This document shows positions 11,385-19,791 of a stretch of DNA of 64,000 nucleotides, piece after piece. The notes beneath the pieces are model-generated. The model was not told where the DNA came from, did not search any database, and saw only the letters and a list, made by a program, of their open reading frames with translations. The stretch covers positions 5,518,001 to 5,582,000 of the forward strand of contig NZ_CP050975.2 in the NCBI RefSeq assembly GCF_012273515.2, given 5' to 3'. This DNA is from Streptomyces sp. RPA4-2. Lineage in GTDB: Bacteria; Actinomycetota; Actinomycetes; Streptomycetales; Streptomycetaceae. Each line of letters starts with the position of its first letter. Position 1 is the first letter of the stretch. The position numbers and the translations under genes are program-made.

Positions 11385-11493
11385 GGGCTGGTCGCGCAGT
11401 TCCCCGGACCCCTGACGGAGCGCTGGGGACCCTCCGGCGCTCAGGGGCCCCGGCCCCGGTGTTCAGGGCGTCGTCGGCGCCCGTCAGGGGTCC
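11385..11493. repeat. Intergenic repeat and inverted repeat between convergent genes
   Basis: GGGGCTGGTCGCGCAGTTCC near 11386-11406 matches a short element I know to be scattered through Streptomyces intergenic regions. It is followed by GGACCCCTGACG (11407-11418), the perfect inverse of CGTCAGGGGTCC (11482-11493), which reaches the stop of the minus-strand gene. A smaller GAGCGC/GCGCTC hairpin lies inside. Together they could terminate transcription from both sides. Confidence 0.5.
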
Positions 11494-13109
11494 GGCACCG
11501 TCAGTTCCGCGGTCATCTTCGCGCGCAGCCGCAAGGTGGTGACGAGGCGCTGGAAGGCCTCGGCCCAGTAGCCGCCGGCCCCCGGCGCCGTGTTCTCCGT
11601 CTCGTCGGTGATCGCCGTGAGCGCGTCGAGCCGACCCGCCTCCAGTGGATCGAGGCACCGCTCGGCCAGCCCCATCACCCCACTGAAGCTCCATGGATAA
11701 CTCCCCGCGTCGCGCGCGATGTCGAGCGCATCGACCACCGCCCGCCCCAGGGGCCCGGCCCACGGCACCGCACAGACCCCCAGGAGCTGAAACGCCTCGG
11801 ACAAGCCGTGCGTGTCGATGAACCCCGCCACCCACTCGGCCCGTTCGGCCGGACCCAGCGTGGCGAGCAGCTTCGAGCGCTCCGCCAGCGACACCGCCCC
11901 CGGTCCGCCGGCCTCCGGGGCGGAGGGCGCGCCGAGGAGCGCCCGGGACCACCCGGGGTCCCGCTGCCGTACCGCCGCCCGGGACCACGCGGCGTGCAGT
12001 TCGTTCCGCCAGTCGTCCGTCACGGGAAGCGCGACGATCTCGTCCGGTGTGCGTCCCCCCAGCCGCCGCGGCCATGTCCCGAGCGGCGCTGCTTCGACCA
12101 ACTGGCCCAGCCACCACGACCGTTCCCCCCGTCCCGCCGGAGCTTTCGGTACAACACCGTCCCGCTCCATGCTCGCGTCGCACTCGTGCGGCGCCTCGAC
12201 GACGATCGAGGGCGTCCCCCGGGTACGGTCGACGGCCACGCACGAACCGGCCCGTGCCGCCATCCGGGCGGCCAGCGCCGAACCGGGCAGTGCGGACAGC
12301 AGCTCCGCCGCCGTGGCCCGCACATTGCGGCTCCGGTCGGTGAGCGCCCGCTCCAGGAACGGCTCGTCGGCCGGGCCCAGCCCTGACCGCAGCGAGTCGA
12401 GGAACATCAGCCGGTCCTCGGCCCGCTCCGTCCCCCAGGTGGTGGCGAGCAGCTCGCGCGCGGTCGCCGGACGACGGGCCCGCAGCGCCGTGAGCAGCGC
12501 GACCCGCTCGGCGAACAGGCCCTCCTGCCACAGCTGTTCCGTGCGTCCGGGCTCGTCGGGGCCGGGCAGCGCGGCGCCGCCGCCGGGCAGGGAACGCAGC
12601 GCGAACCGCCAGTCCGGGTTCAGCCGGGCCAGCCACAGGGCGCGCGGTCCGGCGAAGGCCAGCGCGGCCGGCCGCAGATCCGTACGGCCCCGGGCCGCGT
12701 CGAGGAGTGCGGGCAGCGTTTCCGCGGGAGCCGCGAAACCGTGCGCGTTGGCCAGCGCGAGCCACTGGGGCAGCAGTTCCATGAGGTCGGGTGCCGTGCC
12801 CCGGCGGCCGGCCCCGGTGCCGGGCCGGTCGGCCAGCAGCACCGCCAGCCGGTGGGCCGCGGCGGGCGGGAGGGGACGTCGTGGGTCGGGCGCCGCGGGC
12901 TCGGGCCGGGCGGCCGCCCGGCCCGGCCGCATCCCGGCCCGCCGCCGCAGGGTCGCCACGGCGGCCGCGTCCAGGACGGCCACCGGCACCTCGCGCCCGG
13001 CCGCCCAGGCGGGCGGTGTACGCCGCTCGGTACCGAGCAGCGCCACGGTGACGAGCTCTTCCCAGGAGCTCTCGACGGGTGCGCCCGCCGAAGCGGAGGT
13101 CGCGTTCAT
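11484..13109 (-). CDS. DUF5691 family protein
   Basis: 541 aa, soluble, rich in Ala, Arg and Leu helices. It starts with a conserved-looking SSWEELVTVALLGTERRTPP and continues as repeated helical pairs (TARELLATTWGTERAEDRL, PFLERALTDRSRNVRATAAELLSAL), which look like HEAT-type repeats. No catalytic motif is seen. AAAGGA lies 5 nt before ATG 13109. It follows the SWIM zinc-finger gene by 90 bp on the same strand, so the two are probably co-transcribed from the damage-type promoter at 14563-14585. In other actinobacteria this family travels with SWIM, MoxR, DUF5682 and VWA proteins. Function is unknown. Confidence 0.8.
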   Translation of the reverse strand: MNATSASAGAPVESSWEELVTVALLGTERRTPPAWAAGREVPVAVLDAAAVATLRRRAGMRPGRAAARPEPAAPDPRRPLPPAAAHRLAVLLADRPGTGAGRRGTAPDLMELLPQWLALANAHGFAAPAETLPALLDAARGRTDLRPAALAFAGPRALWLARLNPDWRFALRSLPGGGAALPGPDEPGRTEQLWQEGLFAERVALLTALRARRPATARELLATTWGTERAEDRLMFLDSLRSGLGPADEPFLERALTDRSRNVRATAAELLSALPGSALAARMAARAGSCVAVDRTRGTPSIVVEAPHECDASMERDGVVPKAPAGRGERSWWLGQLVEAAPLGTWPRRLGGRTPDEIVALPVTDDWRNELHAAWSRAAVRQRDPGWSRALLGAPSAPEAGGPGAVSLAERSKLLATLGPAERAEWVAGFIDTHGLSEAFQLLGVCAVPWAGPLGRAVVDALDIARDAGSYPWSFSGVMGLAERCLDPLEAGRLDALTAITDETENTAPGAGGYWAEAFQRLVTTLRLRAKMTAELTVPDP

Positions 13110-13199
13110 GAACGTCCTTTCCCTATCGAGGGACTGGGGTGCGGGAAGCGCGCGGTGGGCGGGAGGAGGGAGGCCAAGCGGCGGACGGGGTGTCGCGGG

Positions 13200-14555
13200 T
13201 CAGCACAGCCGCACCGCCTCGCCCGTCCCCTCCGGCCAGGCGGTCAGCGGAGCGAAGCCACGGTGACCGCACTCGCCGAAGACCGTGACGGGGGCGCCGC
13301 CGGAGAGGGCGGCCAGCCGCCACAGCCCGGGTCCGGAGAGCGCCGAGGGCGTGAGGGGGAGCGCGGAGTCGCCTTCCGCGTCCGCCAGTTGCCAGGTGTC
13401 CCCGTCGGGGGTGGGTATGACCCGGGACAGCGTGACCGGGCAGGCGTCGAGCCAGGGATCGTCCCGCAGCGCCTCGCCGTAGCGGGTCGCCGCGCGGAGT
13501 GTGCTCACTCCCGGCGGACGGGTGCGGGTGGGTGCCGGGAGGGTGAACCGCTCGCCCAGGGCGGCCCGGAGCCGTCCCGTGCCGGGGTACGCGGACACCT
13601 CCGCCTCGAAGGCCAGGCCCACCGGCAGGGTCAGCTCCGGCGCGCGGCCGGCCGGCCCGTAGGAGAGGACCCGGACCGTGCGGCCGGACTCCGCGCCGTA
13701 CAGCCAGATCCTGCGGGTGGTGAGACGGCTGTCCGCCGTGTCGTACTGGGCGAGGACCAGCCAGCGGTCCCGCAGTGGGGGGCCGCCCGCGGAGCCGGTC
13801 AGACCGACCCGGGAGCGGACCGTCGCGGCGAGCCCGTCCGGCAGCGACTCCCGGCGCAGCCAGCCCTGGTCGAGGAGATGGAGCAGCGCGCACTCCTCCA
13901 GCAGCCGTACGGGCCAGCCCGGACCGGAGGCGGGGATAGCGCCCAACTCCCGCACCCGCGTGGCCAGTCCGGGCGCCTGCGCGTCGACCATGCGGGCCGC
14001 CGTCTCCTCCCACATCCCGTACCCCGCCTGCTCGGCCGCGGCGAGGCCACCCCGCAGCAGGTCGGCCAGCCGCCGCTCCAACTCCCCCGCACCGGCGGTG
14101 ATCCGCGCGGCCCGGCGCTCCGCCCTGCGCCGGGCCGCCTCCGGGTCAGCCGGTGACGCCGTCCCAGATGCCCCGCCCGTCGTCCGATTCGCCGCCGCTC
14201 GCTCCCTTCTCCCCTCTGTCCATCGCCCCGCCCAGTCCGGCACAGGTCCCCGCGGCACCGTGCCTTCCCCGCCCGCCCAGAGCAGCAGCAGTCCCAGCGT
14301 GTGTTTGCACGGGAACTTCCGGCTCGGACAACTGCACGTGTACGCGGGCCCGGTGGAGTCCGCGATGTCGATGACCGTCTGATAAGGCGTGCTGCCGCTT
14401 CCTCTGCACAGTCCCCATAGCGTCCCCTCGTCAGAACTGCCTGTTTCCGACCACGGCCCGGCGGTGCCGAGCTTGCTGCCCGCTCTGCGTGACGCCGTGT
14501 CAGGAGCCAGTGCCAGCACCTGATCCGCCGTCCAGCGCACCCCCTGCTGAGTCAT
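13200..14555 (-). CDS. SWIM zinc-finger domain protein
   Basis: 451 aa. The SWIM motif CxCx6CxH is at about residues 72-83 (YTCSCPSRKFPCKHTLGLLL), a fold used for DNA or protein binding in recombination- and MuDR-linked proteins. The rest is a large alpha/beta region with no motif I recognise. I start at ATG 14555 (MTQQGVRWTADQVLALAPD): the promoter TTGTCAGTG-N8-TACCTT ends 7 nt before it, so the message is likely leaderless, and the ten upstream residues would lie in the promoter. It heads the minus-strand half of the divergent MoxR/VWA block and is probably co-transcribed with the DUF5691 gene. Damage-inducible expression is inferred from the promoter. Confidence 0.88.
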   Translation of the reverse strand: MTQQGVRWTADQVLALAPDTASRRAGSKLGTAGPWSETGSSDEGTLWGLCRGSGSTPYQTVIDIADSTGPAYTCSCPSRKFPCKHTLGLLLLWAGGEGTVPRGPVPDWAGRWTEGRRERAAANRTTGGASGTASPADPEAARRRAERRAARITAGAGELERRLADLLRGGLAAAEQAGYGMWEETAARMVDAQAPGLATRVRELGAIPASGPGWPVRLLEECALLHLLDQGWLRRESLPDGLAATVRSRVGLTGSAGGPPLRDRWLVLAQYDTADSRLTTRRIWLYGAESGRTVRVLSYGPAGRAPELTLPVGLAFEAEVSAYPGTGRLRAALGERFTLPAPTRTRPPGVSTLRAATRYGEALRDDPWLDACPVTLSRVIPTPDGDTWQLADAEGDSALPLTPSALSGPGLWRLAALSGGAPVTVFGECGHRGFAPLTAWPEGTGEAVRLC

Positions 14556-14562
14556 GTCATCG

Positions 14563-14585
14563 AAGGTAGGTCCCACCACTGACAA
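14563..14585 (-). promoter_or_regulatory. PafBC-type DNA-damage promoter of the SWIM gene
   Basis: On the minus strand, TTGTCAGTG (14577-14585), 8 nt (GTGGGACC), TACCTT (14563-14568), then 7 nt to the ATG. This fits TTGTCRGTG-N8-TANNNT exactly and implies a leaderless transcript. Confidence 0.82.
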
Positions 14586-14623
14586 TCGCCCCTCGTGAGC
14601 ACGTTTGCGCAGGTCAGAGCCGA

Positions 14624-14646
14624 TTGTCAGTGGCGTGGTGCACGGT
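14624..14646 (+). promoter_or_regulatory. Divergent TTGTCAGTG promoter element for the MoxR-DUF5682-VWA operon
   Basis: TTGTCAGTG at 14624-14632 is followed after 8 nt by CACGGT (14641-14646), which keeps the A and final T of TANNNT but not the first T. The element faces away from the SWIM promoter 38 bp off, so both arms of the block carry the same activator-type site. A 37-nt leader with GGAGGGGGGA leads to the ATG at 14690. The -10 is weaker than in the other two sites. Confidence 0.6.
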
Positions 14647-14689
14647 GGAACCAGATCCGAACCGGCCGAGCTGGAGGGGGGACCGAGCC

Positions 14690-15877
14690 ATGACCGTGTC
14701 CGTCGAGTCCGTGGAACCGACGTCCGTCGATACGCCCGCGGAACAGGCTGGGGGAACGGCCCCGGGCGGGAGCGCGGGGAGCGCCGGCGGCCACGCGGAC
14801 GAGGTGCTGCGGCCGCACGCCGAGCACGCCTTCGCCGCCGAACTCGCCGCGCTGGCCGCGCAGGACGACCGGCCCCGCCCGGCCCGCTGGCGGCTGTCGC
14901 CGTGGGCGGTGGCGACCTATCTGCTGGGCGGCACCCTGCCGGACGGCACGGAGATCACCCCGAAGTACGTGGGCCCGCGCCGCATCGTCGAGGTCGCGGT
15001 CACCACCCTCGCCACCGACCGCGCCCTGCTGCTGCTCGGTGTGCCCGGCACCGCGAAGACATGGGTGTCCGAGCACCTGGCCGCTGCGGTCAGCGGCGAC
15101 TCGACGCTGCTCGTGCAGGGCACCGCCGGCACGCCGGAGGAGGCGATCCGGTACGGGTGGAACTACGCGCGGCTGCTCGCGCACGGCCCCAGCCGGGACG
15201 CGCTCGTGCCGAGTCCGGTCATGCGCGCCATGGCCGAGGGCATGACGGTCCGCGTCGAGGAGCTGACCCGTGTCCCGGCGGACGTACAGGACACGCTGAT
15301 CACGATCCTGTCCGAGAAGACCCTGCCCATACCGGAGTTGGGCCAGGAGACGCAGGCCGTCCGCGGCTTCAACCTGATCGCCACGGCCAACGACCGCGAC
15401 CGCGGGGTGAACGAGCTGTCCAGCGCCCTGCGCCGGCGCTTCAACACGGTGGTGCTGCCGCTGCCGGAGAGTGCCGAGGCGGAGGTGGACATCGTCTCGC
15501 GCCGCGTCGACCAGATCGGCCGCTCCCTCGACCTCCCGTCGGTCCCGGACGGCGTCGACGAGATCCGCCGGGTCGTCACCGTCTTCCGAGAGCTGCGCGA
15601 CGGAGTGACGGCGGACGGGCGTACGAAACTCAAGTCGCCCAGCGGCACGCTGTCCACCGCCGAGGCGATCTCCGTCGTCACCGGCGGCCTGGCGCTGGCC
15701 GCCCACTTCGGCGACGGCGTCCTGCGCGCCTCGGACGTGGCCGCCGGCGTCCTCGGCGCCGTCGTCCGCGATCCGGCGGCCGACCGGGTGATCTGGCAGG
15801 AGTACCTGGAGGCGGTCGTCCGCGAGCGTGAGGGCTGGAAGGACTTCTACCGGGCCTGCCGGGAGGTGAGCGCGTGA
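14690..15877 (+). CDS. MoxR-type AAA+ ATPase
   Basis: 395 aa. A Thr/Gly/Ala-rich disordered N-terminus (1-40) precedes an AAA+ core. Walker A is GVPGTAKT (117-124), Walker B VRVEELTRVP, and sensor 1 lies in LIATANDRDRGVNELSSALRRRF, which also supplies the arginine finger. MoxR ATPases act as chaperones that remodel or load metal into VWA-domain partners, and a VWA gene lies two genes downstream. ATG 14690 follows GGAGGGGGGA by 7 nt. It is the first gene of the plus-strand operon and its stop is close to the DUF5682 start. Confidence 0.9.
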   Translation: MTVSVESVEPTSVDTPAEQAGGTAPGGSAGSAGGHADEVLRPHAEHAFAAELAALAAQDDRPRPARWRLSPWAVATYLLGGTLPDGTEITPKYVGPRRIVEVAVTTLATDRALLLLGVPGTAKTWVSEHLAAAVSGDSTLLVQGTAGTPEEAIRYGWNYARLLAHGPSRDALVPSPVMRAMAEGMTVRVEELTRVPADVQDTLITILSEKTLPIPELGQETQAVRGFNLIATANDRDRGVNELSSALRRRFNTVVLPLPESAEAEVDIVSRRVDQIGRSLDLPSVPDGVDEIRRVVTVFRELRDGVTADGRTKLKSPSGTLSTAEAISVVTGGLALAAHFGDGVLRASDVAAGVLGAVVRDPAADRVIWQEYLEAVVREREGWKDFYRACREVSA

Positions 15878-16021
15878 CCGGACCAGGGGGAGGGGACGGC
15901 GGAGGAGCGCGGCCCCGGCGTGCGGGGAGGGGCGGAGAGGGGGGAGCCCGGTGTGCGGGAGGAGGGGACGCGGGGCGAGGAACCCGGCGCGGGGGAAGGG
16001 GCGGAGACCGAGGAGCCCGGC

Positions 16022-18541
16022 ATGCGGGAAGGAACGCGACGCGCGGCCGGTGCGGGAGCGGAACGGATGCCGCCCGCGCGGGCGGGTGGCCCGCTGCTGC
16101 TGGGGGTGCGGCACCACGGGCCCGGCTCGGCGCGTGCCGTACGGGCCGCCCTGGACGCCGCGTCACCCCGGACCGTCCTGATCGAGGGACCCCCGGAGGC
16201 CGACACTCTCATTCCGCTCGCCGCCGACCCCGACATGCGTCCTCCGGTCGCGCTCCTGGCCCATGCGGTGGACGAGCCCGGCCGCTCCGCCTTCTGGCCG
16301 CTGGCCGAGTTCTCCCCGGAGTGGGTGGCGATCCGGTGGGCGATCGACCACGGTGTCCCGGCCCGCTTCATCGACCTGCCGGCCACGCACACGCTGGCAT
16401 GGGAGAAGGAGGAACCACCCCGGTCACCCGCCGAACCCACGGCTGACGCCGTGCGGATCGACCCGCTCGCCGTGCTCGCGGAGACGGCAGGTCACGACGA
16501 CCCCGAGCGCTGGTGGGAGGACGCGGTCGAGCACCGGAGCGGAACCGGCGCCGATCCGTTCGCGCCGTTCGCCGTCCTGGAGGAGGCGATGGGAGCACTG
16601 CGGGAGGCGTACGGGGGCGGCGGACACGACCGGGACCCGGAGCGGGAGGCGTACATGCGGCTCCAGGTGCGCGCGGCACAGCGCGAGTTCGGGGACGACG
16701 TGGCCGTGGTGTGCGGGGCCTGGCACGTGCCCGCGCTGCGCCGCGGCACCACGGTCGCCGCCGACCGGGCGCTGCTCAAGGGGCTGCCCAGGACCAAGGC
16801 CGACATGACATGGGTGCCGTGGACGCACCGCAGGCTGTCCCGGGCCGGCGGGTACGGCGCGGGCATCGACTCACCGGGCTGGTACGGACACCTCTTCGGC
16901 GCCCCCGACCGCCCGGTCGAGCGATGGATGACGAAGGTGGCCCGGCTGCTGCGCGACGAGGACCTGATGGTCTCCGCCGCGCACGTCATCGAGGCGGTGC
17001 GGCTCGCCGGCACGCTCGCCGCCGTACGGGGCCGCCCGCTGCCCGGACTGACCGAGACCACCGACGCCGTTCGGGCCGTGATGTGCGAGGGCTCGGACGT
17101 GCCGCTGGGGCTCGTGCACGACCGGCTCGTGGTCGGCGATGTGCTGGGCGAGGTGCCGCGGTCCGCCCCCGCGGTGCCGCTGCAGCGCGACCTCGCCCGG
17201 CTCCAGAAGCGGCTGCGGATCAAACCCGAGCCGCTGGAGCGGGAGTTGGAGCTCGACCTGCGGGGCGAGACCGACGCGGGGCGCAGCAGGCTCCTGCACC
17301 GGCTGCGGCTGCTCGGCATCGGCTGGGGCGAGCCCGCCGCATCCCGTGGCAGCACCGGCACCTTCCGGGAGACCTGGCGGCTGCGCTGGGAGCCGGAGCT
17401 GTCCGTGCGGGTCGCCGAGGCCGGGGTGTGGGGCACGACCGTGCTGTCCGCGGCGACCGCCAGGGCGGAGGCGGACGCCGTCGCCGCGCCGGCCCTGGCC
17501 GACGTCACGGCACTCGCCGAGCGCTGTCTGCTCGCCGGGCTCACGGACGCCCTGCCCGTGGTGATGCGGGTCCTCGCCGACCGGGCGGCCCTGGACACGG
17601 ACGTCGGCCACCTCGCGCAGGCGCTGCCCGCGCTGGTCCGCTCGCTGCGCTACGGGGACGTTCGCGGCACGGACACACAGGCCCTCACCGAGGTCGCCGC
17701 GGGCCTCGCCGAGCGGATCTTCGTCGGTCTCCCGCCGGCCTGCGCGGCACTCGACGCCGAGGCCGCCGAGGACATGCGGCGCCATGTGGACGCGGTGCAC
17801 GGCGCGGTGGGACTGCTGGGGGAGACAGGACTGTTGGGAGAGACGGCCACGGCAAGACCGTCCGCCGGCGGACCGCCCGGCACGGGGATGCGCGGTCGCT
17901 GGCACTCCGTGCTGCGGGTGCTGGCCGGCCGCGACACCGTCCCCGGCGTGCTCCGTGGGCGGGCCGTGCGACTGCTGCTGGACGACGGCGAGCTGGGGCA
18001 GGAGGAGGCCGCCCGGCTCATGGGACTCGTGCTGTCGCCGGGCACGGAGCCGGCGGACGCGGCCGCGTGGATCGAGGGGTTCGTCGGCGGCGGCTCCGGC
18101 GGAGGCATGCTGCTCGTGCACGACGAGCGGCTGCTCGGACTGGTCGACGCGTGGCTGACGGGGGTGCCGGCGGAGGCGTTCACCGATGTGCTCCCGCTGC
18201 TGCGGCGCACGTTCTCGGCGTACGAGGCGGGCGTGCGCAGGACGTTGGGGGAGCTGGTCCGGCGCGGCCCGGGGGCGCGGGGGAGCGCCGCGGCCGCCGC
18301 CGGCATACCCGGGTTCGACCCGGAGCTGGACGCGGGGCGCGCCGACGCCGTCCTGCCGGTGCTGCGTCTGCTGCTCGGGCCGGACGACAACGAGACCGTC
18401 GATGGCAACGAGACCGCTCACGACAACGACACCGAAACCGCCGACACCGAAGCCGCCGACACCGAAGCCGCCGACGCAGACGAATTCAACGGGGGCGAGG
18501 AATCCACCGACGCCGACGACCTTGTGGGGGCGGACCGATGA
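16022..18541 (+). CDS. DUF5682 family protein
   Basis: About 839 aa. Near the N-terminus are LLLGVRHHGPGSARAVRAAL and VLIEGPPEADTLIPLAAD, followed by PARFIDLPATHTLAW. This His/Gly- and acid-rich layout recalls TraB/ChaN-type hydrolase folds and suggests a binding or catalytic pocket, but no enzyme activity is established. The middle is helical, and the last 50 residues are an acidic repeat tail (DTEAADTEAADADE). The start is uncertain: ATG 16022 has GAGGAG 6 nt upstream and is preferred; GTG 15920 and ATG 16067 are alternatives. The 145 bp after moxR are GGGGA-rich and poor as protein. The stop overlaps the VWA start (ATGA), so the two are translationally coupled. Confidence 0.8.
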   Translation: MREGTRRAAGAGAERMPPARAGGPLLLGVRHHGPGSARAVRAALDAASPRTVLIEGPPEADTLIPLAADPDMRPPVALLAHAVDEPGRSAFWPLAEFSPEWVAIRWAIDHGVPARFIDLPATHTLAWEKEEPPRSPAEPTADAVRIDPLAVLAETAGHDDPERWWEDAVEHRSGTGADPFAPFAVLEEAMGALREAYGGGGHDRDPEREAYMRLQVRAAQREFGDDVAVVCGAWHVPALRRGTTVAADRALLKGLPRTKADMTWVPWTHRRLSRAGGYGAGIDSPGWYGHLFGAPDRPVERWMTKVARLLRDEDLMVSAAHVIEAVRLAGTLAAVRGRPLPGLTETTDAVRAVMCEGSDVPLGLVHDRLVVGDVLGEVPRSAPAVPLQRDLARLQKRLRIKPEPLERELELDLRGETDAGRSRLLHRLRLLGIGWGEPAASRGSTGTFRETWRLRWEPELSVRVAEAGVWGTTVLSAATARAEADAVAAPALADVTALAERCLLAGLTDALPVVMRVLADRAALDTDVGHLAQALPALVRSLRYGDVRGTDTQALTEVAAGLAERIFVGLPPACAALDAEAAEDMRRHVDAVHGAVGLLGETGLLGETATARPSAGGPPGTGMRGRWHSVLRVLAGRDTVPGVLRGRAVRLLLDDGELGQEEAARLMGLVLSPGTEPADAAAWIEGFVGGGSGGGMLLVHDERLLGLVDAWLTGVPAEAFTDVLPLLRRTFSAYEAGVRRTLGELVRRGPGARGSAAAAAGIPGFDPELDAGRADAVLPVLRLLLGPDDNETVDGNETAHDNDTETADTEAADTEAADADEFNGGEESTDADDLVGADR

Positions 18542-19791
18542 CCTCAGTACCGCTGGACCCGGCCGACGCGCCCCGACCCGACGGCGGCGCGCCCCGGCCG
18601 GTCGACGCGCGCCGTGCGAACGCCTCGGCCGACGAGCGGCTGCGGCGCTGGCGACTCGTGCTCGGCGGCGACGAGGCCGACGGCACCGGACGCGCGCTCG
18701 CCGGGCAGGACGCGGCGATGGACGGCGCGCTCACCGCGTTGTACGGAAAGGGGAGCGGGACGCAGTCGGGGCGGGACCGCTCGGCGGGGCTCGGGGCGTC
18801 CGCACCGTCGGTCGCGCGCTGGCTCGGGGACATCCGGACGTACTTCCCCTCGTCCGTCGTGCAGGTCATGCAGCGCGACGCGATCGACCGGCTCGGGCTG
18901 TCCGCTCTGCTGCTGGAGCCCGAGATGCTGGAGGCGGTGGAGGCCGACGTGCATCTGGTGGGCACCCTCCTCTCCCTCAACAAGGCCATGCCGGAGACGA
19001 CGAAGGAGACCGCGCGGGCCGTCGTGCGCAAGGTCGTCGAGGACCTGGAGAAGCGGCTCGCCACCCGCACCCGCGCCTCGCTCTCCGGCGCCCTCGACCG
19101 CAGCGCCCGCGTCACCCGCCCCCGCCACCACGACATCGACTGGAACCGCACGATCGCGGCCAACCTGAAGCACTACCTGCCCGAACACCGCACGGTCGTT
19201 CCCGAGCGGCTGATCGGTTACGGACGTGCCTCGCGGTCCGTGAAGAAGGAGGTCGTCCTGTGCGTCGACCAGTCGGGCTCGATGGCAGCGTCCGTCGTCT
19301 ACGCGTCCGTCTTCGGGGCCGTCCTCGCGTCGATGCGGTCCATCGCCACCCGGCTCGTCGTCTTCGACACGGCCGTCGTGGACCTCACCGACCAGCTCGA
19401 CGACCCGGTCGACGTCCTCTTCGGCACCCGGCTCGGCGGCGGAACGGACATCAACCGGGCGCTCGCGTACTGCCAGTCGCAGATCACCCGGCCCGCCGAC
19501 ACCGTGGTCGTGCTCATCAGCGACCTCTACGAAGGAGGCATACGCCACGAGATGCTGAAGCGGGTGGCGGCGATGAAGGCGTCGGGGGTGCAGTTCGTGA
19601 CGCTGCTGGCGCTGTCCGACGAGGGGACGCCGGCCTACGACCGGGAGCACGCGGCGGCACTCGCGGCGCTGGGCGCACCGGCGTTCGCCTGCACCCCCGA
19701 TCTGTTTCCCGACGTGATGGCGGCGGCGATCGAGAAGCGTCCGCTTCCCGTGCCCGACGTCGGGGGACGAGAGCCGAAAAACCGGACATGA
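18538..19791 (+). CDS. VWA (von Willebrand A) domain protein, MoxR partner
   Basis: 417 aa. An N-terminal helical domain (about 30-235) precedes a VWA domain with a complete MIDAS: DQSGS (244-248), the Thr in GGGTDINRAL, and the Asp in LISDLYEGG. MIDAS VWA domains bind a metal and a protein ligand, and in MoxR systems the ATPase is thought to act on them. ATG 18538 overlaps the DUF5682 stop as ATGA, so the pair should be made in equal amounts. The protein has no membrane segment and is probably cytoplasmic. The target of the system is unknown. Confidence 0.9.
   Translation: MTSVPLDPADAPRPDGGAPRPVDARRANASADERLRRWRLVLGGDEADGTGRALAGQDAAMDGALTALYGKGSGTQSGRDRSAGLGASAPSVARWLGDIRTYFPSSVVQVMQRDAIDRLGLSALLLEPEMLEAVEADVHLVGTLLSLNKAMPETTKETARAVVRKVVEDLEKRLATRTRASLSGALDRSARVTRPRHHDIDWNRTIAANLKHYLPEHRTVVPERLIGYGRASRSVKKEVVLCVDQSGSMAASVVYASVFGAVLASMRSIATRLVVFDTAVVDLTDQLDDPVDVLFGTRLGGGTDINRALAYCQSQITRPADTVVVLISDLYEGGIRHEMLKRVAAMKASGVQFVTLLALSDEGTPAYDREHAAALAALGAPAFACTPDLFPDVMAAAIEKRPLPVPDVGGREPKNRT

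Follow-up and report, generated by a model that had tools for sequence, protein, structure and literature searches.

The 64,000-nucleotide window analysed here (positions 5,518,001 to 5,582,000 of contig NZ_CP050975.2, Streptomyces sp. RPA4-2) carries a cluster of five genes that encode a SWIM zinc-finger protein, a DUF5691 protein, a MoxR-family AAA+ ATPase, a DUF5682 protein and a VWA protein. The locus probably codes for a DNA-damage-induced remodelling complex of the YehL-type MoxR-VWA kind, which works with exchangeable recognition proteins. From two conserved promoters in the divergent control region we strongly infer damage regulation of the cluster; a role in repair or in the rescue of replication forks appears likely. 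That the same promoter box recurs before the different lead genes of paralogous systems is the strongest sign that, within this genus at least, the damage response would include the machine itself and not one accessory gene.

The divergent promoters and the RecA-NDp regulon

The features of the cluster are as follows.

11484 to 13109, minus strand: DUF5691 protein (P0001, 541 aa; PF18944, E 1e-174), gene 2 of the leftward unit
13200 to 14555, minus strand: SWIM zinc-finger protein (P0002, 451 aa; PF04434, E 5.2e-5), gene 1 of the leftward unit
14563 to 14585, minus strand (box 14585-14576): putative RecA-NDp/PafBC-type promoter of SWIM-DUF5691, TTGTCAGTGG-N7-TACCTT
14624 to 14646, plus strand (box 14624-14633): putative RecA-NDp/PafBC-type promoter of MoxR-DUF5682-VWA, TTGTCAGTGG-N7-CACGGT
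14690 to 15877, plus strand: MoxR-family AAA+ ATPase (P0003, 395 aa; AAA_5, E 7.7e-37), homologue of YehL
about 15920 to 18541, plus strand: DUF5682 protein (P0004, up to 873 aa; PF18934, E 1.2e-298), homologue of YehM
18538 to 19791, plus strand: VWA (CoxE-type) protein (P0005, 417 aa; VWA_CoxE, E 2e-62), homologue of YehP

The five open reading frames were confirmed by Pfam scan of the window where an earlier, sequence-only reading had placed them, and the other elements of its description (complete motifs, one divergent control region, and an ATGA overlap at 18538-18541 joining the DUF5682 and VWA genes) were likewise found. The control region (14556-14689) carries two exact TTGTCAGTGG boxes, one facing each arm. 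The SWIM promoter fits TAnnnT perfectly; the MoxR promoter is one −10 base off, in a CAnnnT variant common to other sites of the host genome. Sigma-70 consensus promoters were searched for and none was found. The ATG at 14555 is the best start for SWIM and its mRNA is probably leaderless, because this ATG lies exactly 30 nt from the first base of the box, an offset shared with recA in this genome. The MoxR start at 14690 follows a Shine-Dalgarno-like GGAGGGGG, and the start of DUF5682 is uncertain, with candidates from GTG 15920 to ATG 16067.

What the sequence-only reading had called damage-type promoters is, by sequence, a conserved pair of RecA-NDp/PafBC type. The RecA-NDp promoter is the form known for Streptomyces recA (PMC2375139, PMC5087735). 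The recA promoter of S. rimosus, which has this form, is reported to be UV-inducible, and in S. coelicolor related motifs are reported ahead of 67 genes, of which 13-20 serve repair (PMC2375139); another RecA-NDp gene is described as UV-induced in S. coelicolor (PMC5087735). In mycobacteria, PafBC, activated by single-stranded DNA (ssDNA), is reported to read a −26 promoter motif (PMC11804915).

The host genome (9.86 Mb, single contig) contains 43 TTGTCAGTGG sites and 5 of the reversed string. In the 42 sites that were read, YAnnnT stands exactly 7 bases after the box 31 times (TAnnnT in 20), with at most 2 sites at any other gap from 2 to 19. Forty of the sites read lay outside the window and the genes at 38 of them were Pfam-scanned (L025 and L040 had no scanned open reading frame); 13 of the scanned sites precede repair or replication genes and the rest precede genes that are unrelated or of no assigned role. 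Genes behind boxes include those for RecA, RuvA, MgsA, HHH_RecD2, MGMT, the delta, delta' and gamma/tau subunits of DNA polymerase III (dnaX, holA), Lhr, two other DEAD helicases, a gyrase/topoisomerase IV A subunit (gyrA/parC-like) and an RNase_T exonuclease. These sites point to a large RecA-NDp regulon in the host Streptomyces, often with short-leader or leaderless starts, and the boxes add to the evidence for such a regulon, a matter left open in the LexA study of PMC9380542. Tandem WYL genes (2077555-2078737, minus strand) lie about 2.4 kb downstream of a Pup-ligase gene of the same genome, and from this position we infer that they are PafB and PafC. Boxes were also noted at 2695600-2697300 of the host genome (L010), before a HEPN_SAV_6107 gene, and at 9222250-9224000 (L041), before an Imm21-like immunity gene.

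Conservation of the boxes was followed in 80 Streptomyces loci: 78 have TTGTCRGTG towards MoxR and 71 have it towards SWIM. Across 77 intergenic regions (the 80 loci minus L056, L060 and L071, which had no usable gene ends) the boxes were the most widely kept 9-mers, present in 71/77 on the SWIM side and 68/77 on the MoxR side, the median of 126 9-mers being 16. For other genera, 23 of 25 loci could be used (L174 is without SWIM and L183 ends within it). TTGTC-N12-TAnnnT, which has the geometry of the Streptomyces boxes, was found ahead of SWIM in 11 of these, and in 0/23 at each of 15 other spacers from 5 to 20; the other-genus loci (859 kb, both strands) held only these 11 matches, all in the windows ahead of SWIM. 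The bases between TTGTC and TAnnnT vary among the 11 matching loci; of the 12 loci without a match, four depart from the pattern by a single base (f62, f3, f26, f85). The damage-type promoter is conserved in Streptomyces and in at least one further family, and damage regulation is well supported by sequence.

The YehL-type core and its SWIM-DUF5691 pair

Co-occurrence of the families was examined in two draws of genomes. In the phylum draw (149 genomes), DUF5682 was present in 10, DUF5691 in 10 (9 over the cut-off) and the SWIM protein in 11, the three lying close together in 9 genomes, the window's own included; G124 has DUF5682 without DUF5691 or SWIM, and the extra DUF5691 and SWIM matches are weak. 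In the class draw (296 genomes), DUF5691 was found in 63 and DUF5682 in 75 (73 over the cut-off). All 63 DUF5691 genomes carry DUF5682, against 12/233 others (Fisher p about 1e-52, which for related genomes is not a strict probability). An adjacency count covering all 63 DUF5691 and 75 DUF5682 genomes, with most second copies left out, placed the two genes within 10 kb in 62/63 genomes and on separate contigs in the remaining one. The two genes diverge in 27 genomes, which by row reading all belong to the window's genus, and share a strand in 35. The sequence-only reading had set a failure of the families to co-occur as a refutation of its five-gene system; they do co-occur, which supports a co-evolving unit.

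Outside the genus, the 25 loci have the operon SWIM>DUF5691>MoxR>DUF5682>VWA on one strand; contig ends remove SWIM in L174 and VWA in L183, and in L162 and L186 DUF5691 was missed by tblastn but a Pfam search places a DUF5691 fragment. Complete annotated operons were seen in Methylosinus and in Deinococcus taeanensis (the latter with one small extra open reading frame), and near-complete ones in Rhizobium and Hymenobacter. Gene order indicates that in Streptomyces this unit is split into two divergent arms: all five genes stand in the window's arrangement in 69/80 loci, and among the other 11, nine have at most 340 bases of sequence remaining where the gene is absent, against 1.0 and 1.7 kb in L097 and L108. 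The cluster is present in 27/28 same-genus genomes of the class draw and lies near sucC in 61/62 long Streptomyces loci.

YehL is one of seven MoxR subfamilies in a 2014 paper (PMC3893208). In E. coli K-12, yehL, yehM, yehP and yehQ stand in a row; their products are annotated, respectively, as a MoxR ATPase, an uncharacterised protein, a VWA protein and a SWIM protein. The MoxR protein of the window is 40% identical to YehL (360 columns), the DUF5682 protein 30% to YehM (560 columns) and the VWA protein 37% to YehP (366 columns); YehM is itself a DUF5682 protein (PF18934, E 2e-98). The MoxR-VWA pairing of the sequence-only reading is supported by these matches. Its heading of an undescribed system was rejected, since the MoxR-DUF5682-VWA core is homologous to E. 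coli yehLMP and the YehL subfamily has been named in print (PMC3893208). The identification of the SWIM gene product as YehQ was also tried and rejected: BLASTP gave no match of note, the zinc motif alone being in common, and hhalign gave a probability of 0.5% with shallow profiles of 7 and 2 sequences.

By sequence, the cluster is a variant form of the YehL-type MoxR-VWA system in which the SWIM+DUF5691 pair takes the place of YehQ. It is classed as a variant and not as the E. coli form because MoxR, DUF5682 and VWA homologues are present while a YehQ-type SWIM protein is not. E. coli yehLMPQ shares the homologous core, the order L-M-P and a SWIM protein within the cluster, but shows no DUF5691 match and has WGR (yehF) and DUF4132 (yehI) genes upstream. 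Among 14 control genomes, Deinobacterium chartae alone gave a DUF5691 match and E. coli gave none. The yehLMPQ stretch was matched in 5301/5426 E. coli genomes, in 5162 of them over at least 80% of its length. In the literature searched, with subscription journals mostly outside its coverage, no function for the yeh genes was found (among the papers listed, one genome note and passing or unrelated mentions), nor any mention of DUF5682 or, among the papers listed, of DUF5691.

The SWIM protein scores 23.1 bits against PF04434 (cut-off 19.6), and its zinc motif CSCPSRKFPCKH (CxC-x6-CxH) is invariant in 7 aligned sequences; its predicted structure (pLDDT 49) was too poor for use. The DUF5691 protein possibly contains helical repeats, a HEAT match being weak (E 0.029) and below the cut-off. 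The residues of the metal ion-dependent adhesion site of the VWA protein were read as DQSGS, GGGTD and SDLYE, and the protein had no match in the PDB by sequence. The AlphaFold2 model of the DUF5682 protein (pLDDT 77) consists of an alpha/beta domain at the N terminus and a C-terminal half made of helices. Invariant in the N-terminal domain of 8 diverse sequences are the R, H, H and P of GxRHHxP, a Glu, SPE, RExxM and VVxGxxH. Comparison of the model with a viral fold library by Foldseek gave a TraB family protein as top match (probability 1.00 but E 9.1e-3, TM-score 0.44 to target), which is only suggestive of an enzyme of TraB/TIKI-like fold. A PDB fold search returned helical-repeat matches over about 410-729, none at E 0.001 or better, and a PDB sequence search with DUF5682 profiles gave no believable match; the pocket that the sequence-only reading ascribed to this protein is still presumed. 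The MoxR protein has Walker A GVPGTAKT, and its PDB relatives are NorQ and midasin. Its Walker B, VRVEELTR, reads Glu-Glu, the same as in E. coli YehL (FEEITR); the usual form is Asp-Glu.

Paralogous systems and other lineages

Twenty-five further loci, chosen by DUF5682 matches, keep MoxR and VWA, and DUF5682 was detectable by tblastn in most. They have three types of lead gene. Type B (8 loci) is led by DUF4132, with WGR in L171, and has YehQ in 6/8; type C (10 loci) by a protein of about 1800 aa with no Pfam match over the cut-off; type D (7 loci) by a 670-aa protein with no Pfam match. In L169 (6654-10451, 1266 aa) and L170 (6923-10942, 1340 aa), both behind the ~1800-aa gene, DUF5682 and VWA form a single open reading frame. 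The L171 cluster, of the same genus (WGR-DUF4132 > MoxR > DUF5682 > VWA > YehQ), has the same core as the window and a RecA-NDp box before the lead gene, and differs in its WGR-DUF4132 lead and a true YehQ (30% to E. coli) instead of SWIM+DUF5691. In L172 (1593-3602) and in L232-L236, L238 and L251-L253, the 670-aa protein was seen to lead a VWA>MoxR pair.

TTGTC-N12-TAnnnT was found within 700 bases in 10/25 loci, and other spacers in none; of 14 matches in 845 kb (both strands), 9 fall in 21 kb of upstream sequence. By type, the box stands before the lead gene in 2/8 (B), 4/10 (C) and 3/7 (D). Counts over the 25 loci include L165, L169 and L170, which start in or near the lead gene; the upstream sequence of the last two is represented by L249 and L250. 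Where the upstream side was covered, all 8 same-genus loci have the box before the lead gene. For the 670-aa leads it lies within about 100 bases before the start of homology in 3/7 loci and in 3/3 further same-genus loci. In a later test on the 13 remaining same-genus second copies, with the upstream sequence of L169 and L170 included, exactly one match was found in 11 and none in L244 and L249. These 11 are all the matches in 227 kb, every one on the strand of the lead gene and ahead of it, with none at other spacers; regardless of intervening open reading frames, 7 lie within 750 bases of the start of homology and 4 at 0.8-1.2 kb. Combined, the box is ahead of the lead gene in 19/21 same-genus paralogous loci.

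In other lineages, observations on E. coli and Deinococcus radiodurans are leads and not tests. A LexA-like box (13/20) lies just ahead of E. coli yehF and is one of the two best in 25 kb; yehL, which begins some 300 bases downstream of yehK, may be transcribed from a promoter of its own. According to PMC8533742, E. coli MolR is described as a LexA-regulon member, and a DUF4132 and a WGR protein of D. radiodurans are up on depletion of the damage repressor DdrO. In Deinococcus taeanensis, a match resembling the radiation/desiccation response motif (12/17) lies 36 bases ahead of SWIM and is weak, since the next best in 19 kb scores 11/17. LexA-type and RecA-NDp patterns were not found in the Rhizobium, Methylosinus and Hymenobacter loci.

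Proposed mechanism and rival explanations

In the proposed mechanism, ssDNA-activated PafBC would induce the two arms along with recA, ruv and further repair genes. The YehL-like MoxR ring would engage the YehP-like VWA protein as NorQ does NorD, and would pull or twist a client; for NorQD, a VWA finger is reported to insert into the pore of the hexameric MoxR ring, which has been proposed to twist and stretch its partner (PMC13036017, PMC9976466). DUF5682, whose gene lies beside the core or is fused to it in the loci read, would be a third core subunit. SWIM and DUF5691 may form an exchangeable part for recognition and scaffolding that directs the machine to its target, for which a protein-DNA complex arising after damage is the likeliest candidate; in paralogous systems their place would be filled by lead proteins of other kinds, for example WGR-DUF4132. 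In eukaryotic Shu complexes, SWIM proteins partner RecA-family recombinases.

More tentatively, and with rather less than even confidence, YehL-type MoxR-DUF5682-VWA complexes, E. coli yehLMPQ included, might be a general bacterial damage-response remodelling machine. One AAA+ core would serve four or more lead modules that can replace one another (SWIM+DUF5691, WGR-DUF4132 with YehQ, and two further families of ~1800 aa and 670 aa) that recognise different damaged or blocked protein-DNA structures. It would be wired into whichever damage regulation each lineage has: in Actinobacteria through PafBC, in E. coli through a LexA-like box (yehF) and in Deinococcus through DdrO. The YehL branch of MoxR, present in nearly every E. 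coli genome searched, gains a concrete functional hypothesis because YehL-type clusters with different leads share one Streptomyces damage promoter.

Several observations weigh against a damage-induced repair machine. Many boxes of the host genome precede genes without known tie to repair, and deletion of SCO6735, a RecA-NDp gene, is reported to cause no significant sensitivity to UV or methyl methanesulfonate (PMC5087735); for these two reasons a role in repair does not follow from a damage promoter. An initial search reported in the LexA study did not find the PafBC motif of M. smegmatis to be conserved in S. venezuelae (PMC9380542). Outside the genus, 10 of the 11 strict matches ahead of SWIM come from one family (f62, 12 loci) and one from f17, so that the loci are not independent, and the 12 misses span f3, f26, f63, f71, f85 and two loci of f62. 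As a control, 23 recA loci were drawn from 21 of these genomes; G042 contributed three, and a recA match was lacking in G247 and G279. Only 4/23 carry the strict pattern upstream, and none has it at another spacer, so the pattern is a strict one from which some recA promoters in these genomes depart. Among paralogous loci outside the genus, the box was found in only 1/15, or 3/15 when the boxes 0.7-0.8 kb ahead in L228 and L229 are included. Finally, DNA binding by SWIM, a protein that the sequence-only reading called DNA-binding-like, is still presumed.

That the boxes are an ordinary housekeeping promoter or belong to a regulator other than PafBC, the genes not being damage-induced, is very unlikely. 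The S. venezuelae search would favour it, and the promoters are identified here by sequence alone; against it, the host-genome sites share one fixed spacing and include recA and many repair and replication genes, the S. rimosus recA promoter of this form is UV-inducible, and S. coelicolor has the related motifs. An unlikely explanation is that of a maturation chaperone for metal insertion into, or remodelling of, one metabolic or respiratory enzyme, which the damage promoter would merely renew after stress. The VWA protein is of CoxE type, the boxes before non-repair genes would fit, and NorQ-NorD and RavA-ViaA, which likewise combine a MoxR hexamer with a VWA partner, are reported to act on respiratory enzymes; they differ from the window's system in these clients, and their abstracts mention no DUF5682, SWIM or DUF5691 partner. 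The four alphaproteobacterial, Bacteroidota and Deinococcus loci read share no metabolic neighbour, however, paralogous systems with three other lead types carry the box in the genus, and one of these leads has a WGR domain, which in PARPs is reported to recognise DNA breaks.

A conflict system, directed at phages or mobile elements and using the damage response as its alarm, is quite unlikely. Conflict systems built around MoxR-vWA pairs have been described (PMC7159879), among them the proposed MoxR-vWA-VMAP ternary systems, which like the window's combine a MoxR ATPase, a vWA co-chaperone and a third component. The MoxR protein falls just under the bpMoxR cut-off (26.3 against 27 bits), the varied lead genes of YehL-type systems recall those often seen in conflict systems, and the Imm21-like and HEPN genes share the box. 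Yet the Pfam scan of the five proteins turned up neither a VMAP, beta-propeller, iSTAND or FtsH family nor an effector domain, and PADLOC gave only generic AAA matches (E 0.008 or weaker). Defence systems are usually patchier in distribution than this cluster or the E. coli stretch, and a MoxR match was found in 1/50,697 phage records. Phage defence is less likely because of the core-chromosome position near sucC, the presence in 27/28 genomes, the scarcity in phage records and the lack of a PADLOC match of note. Of the roles named in the sequence-only reading, repair and fork rescue are retained as likely, and conflict response is the weaker half. The phage-record match is MT835988.1 (L219, 355-1350), an unverified 14-kb faecal 'Bacteriophage sp.' record whose MoxR relative is 54% identical and which is possibly bacterial DNA.

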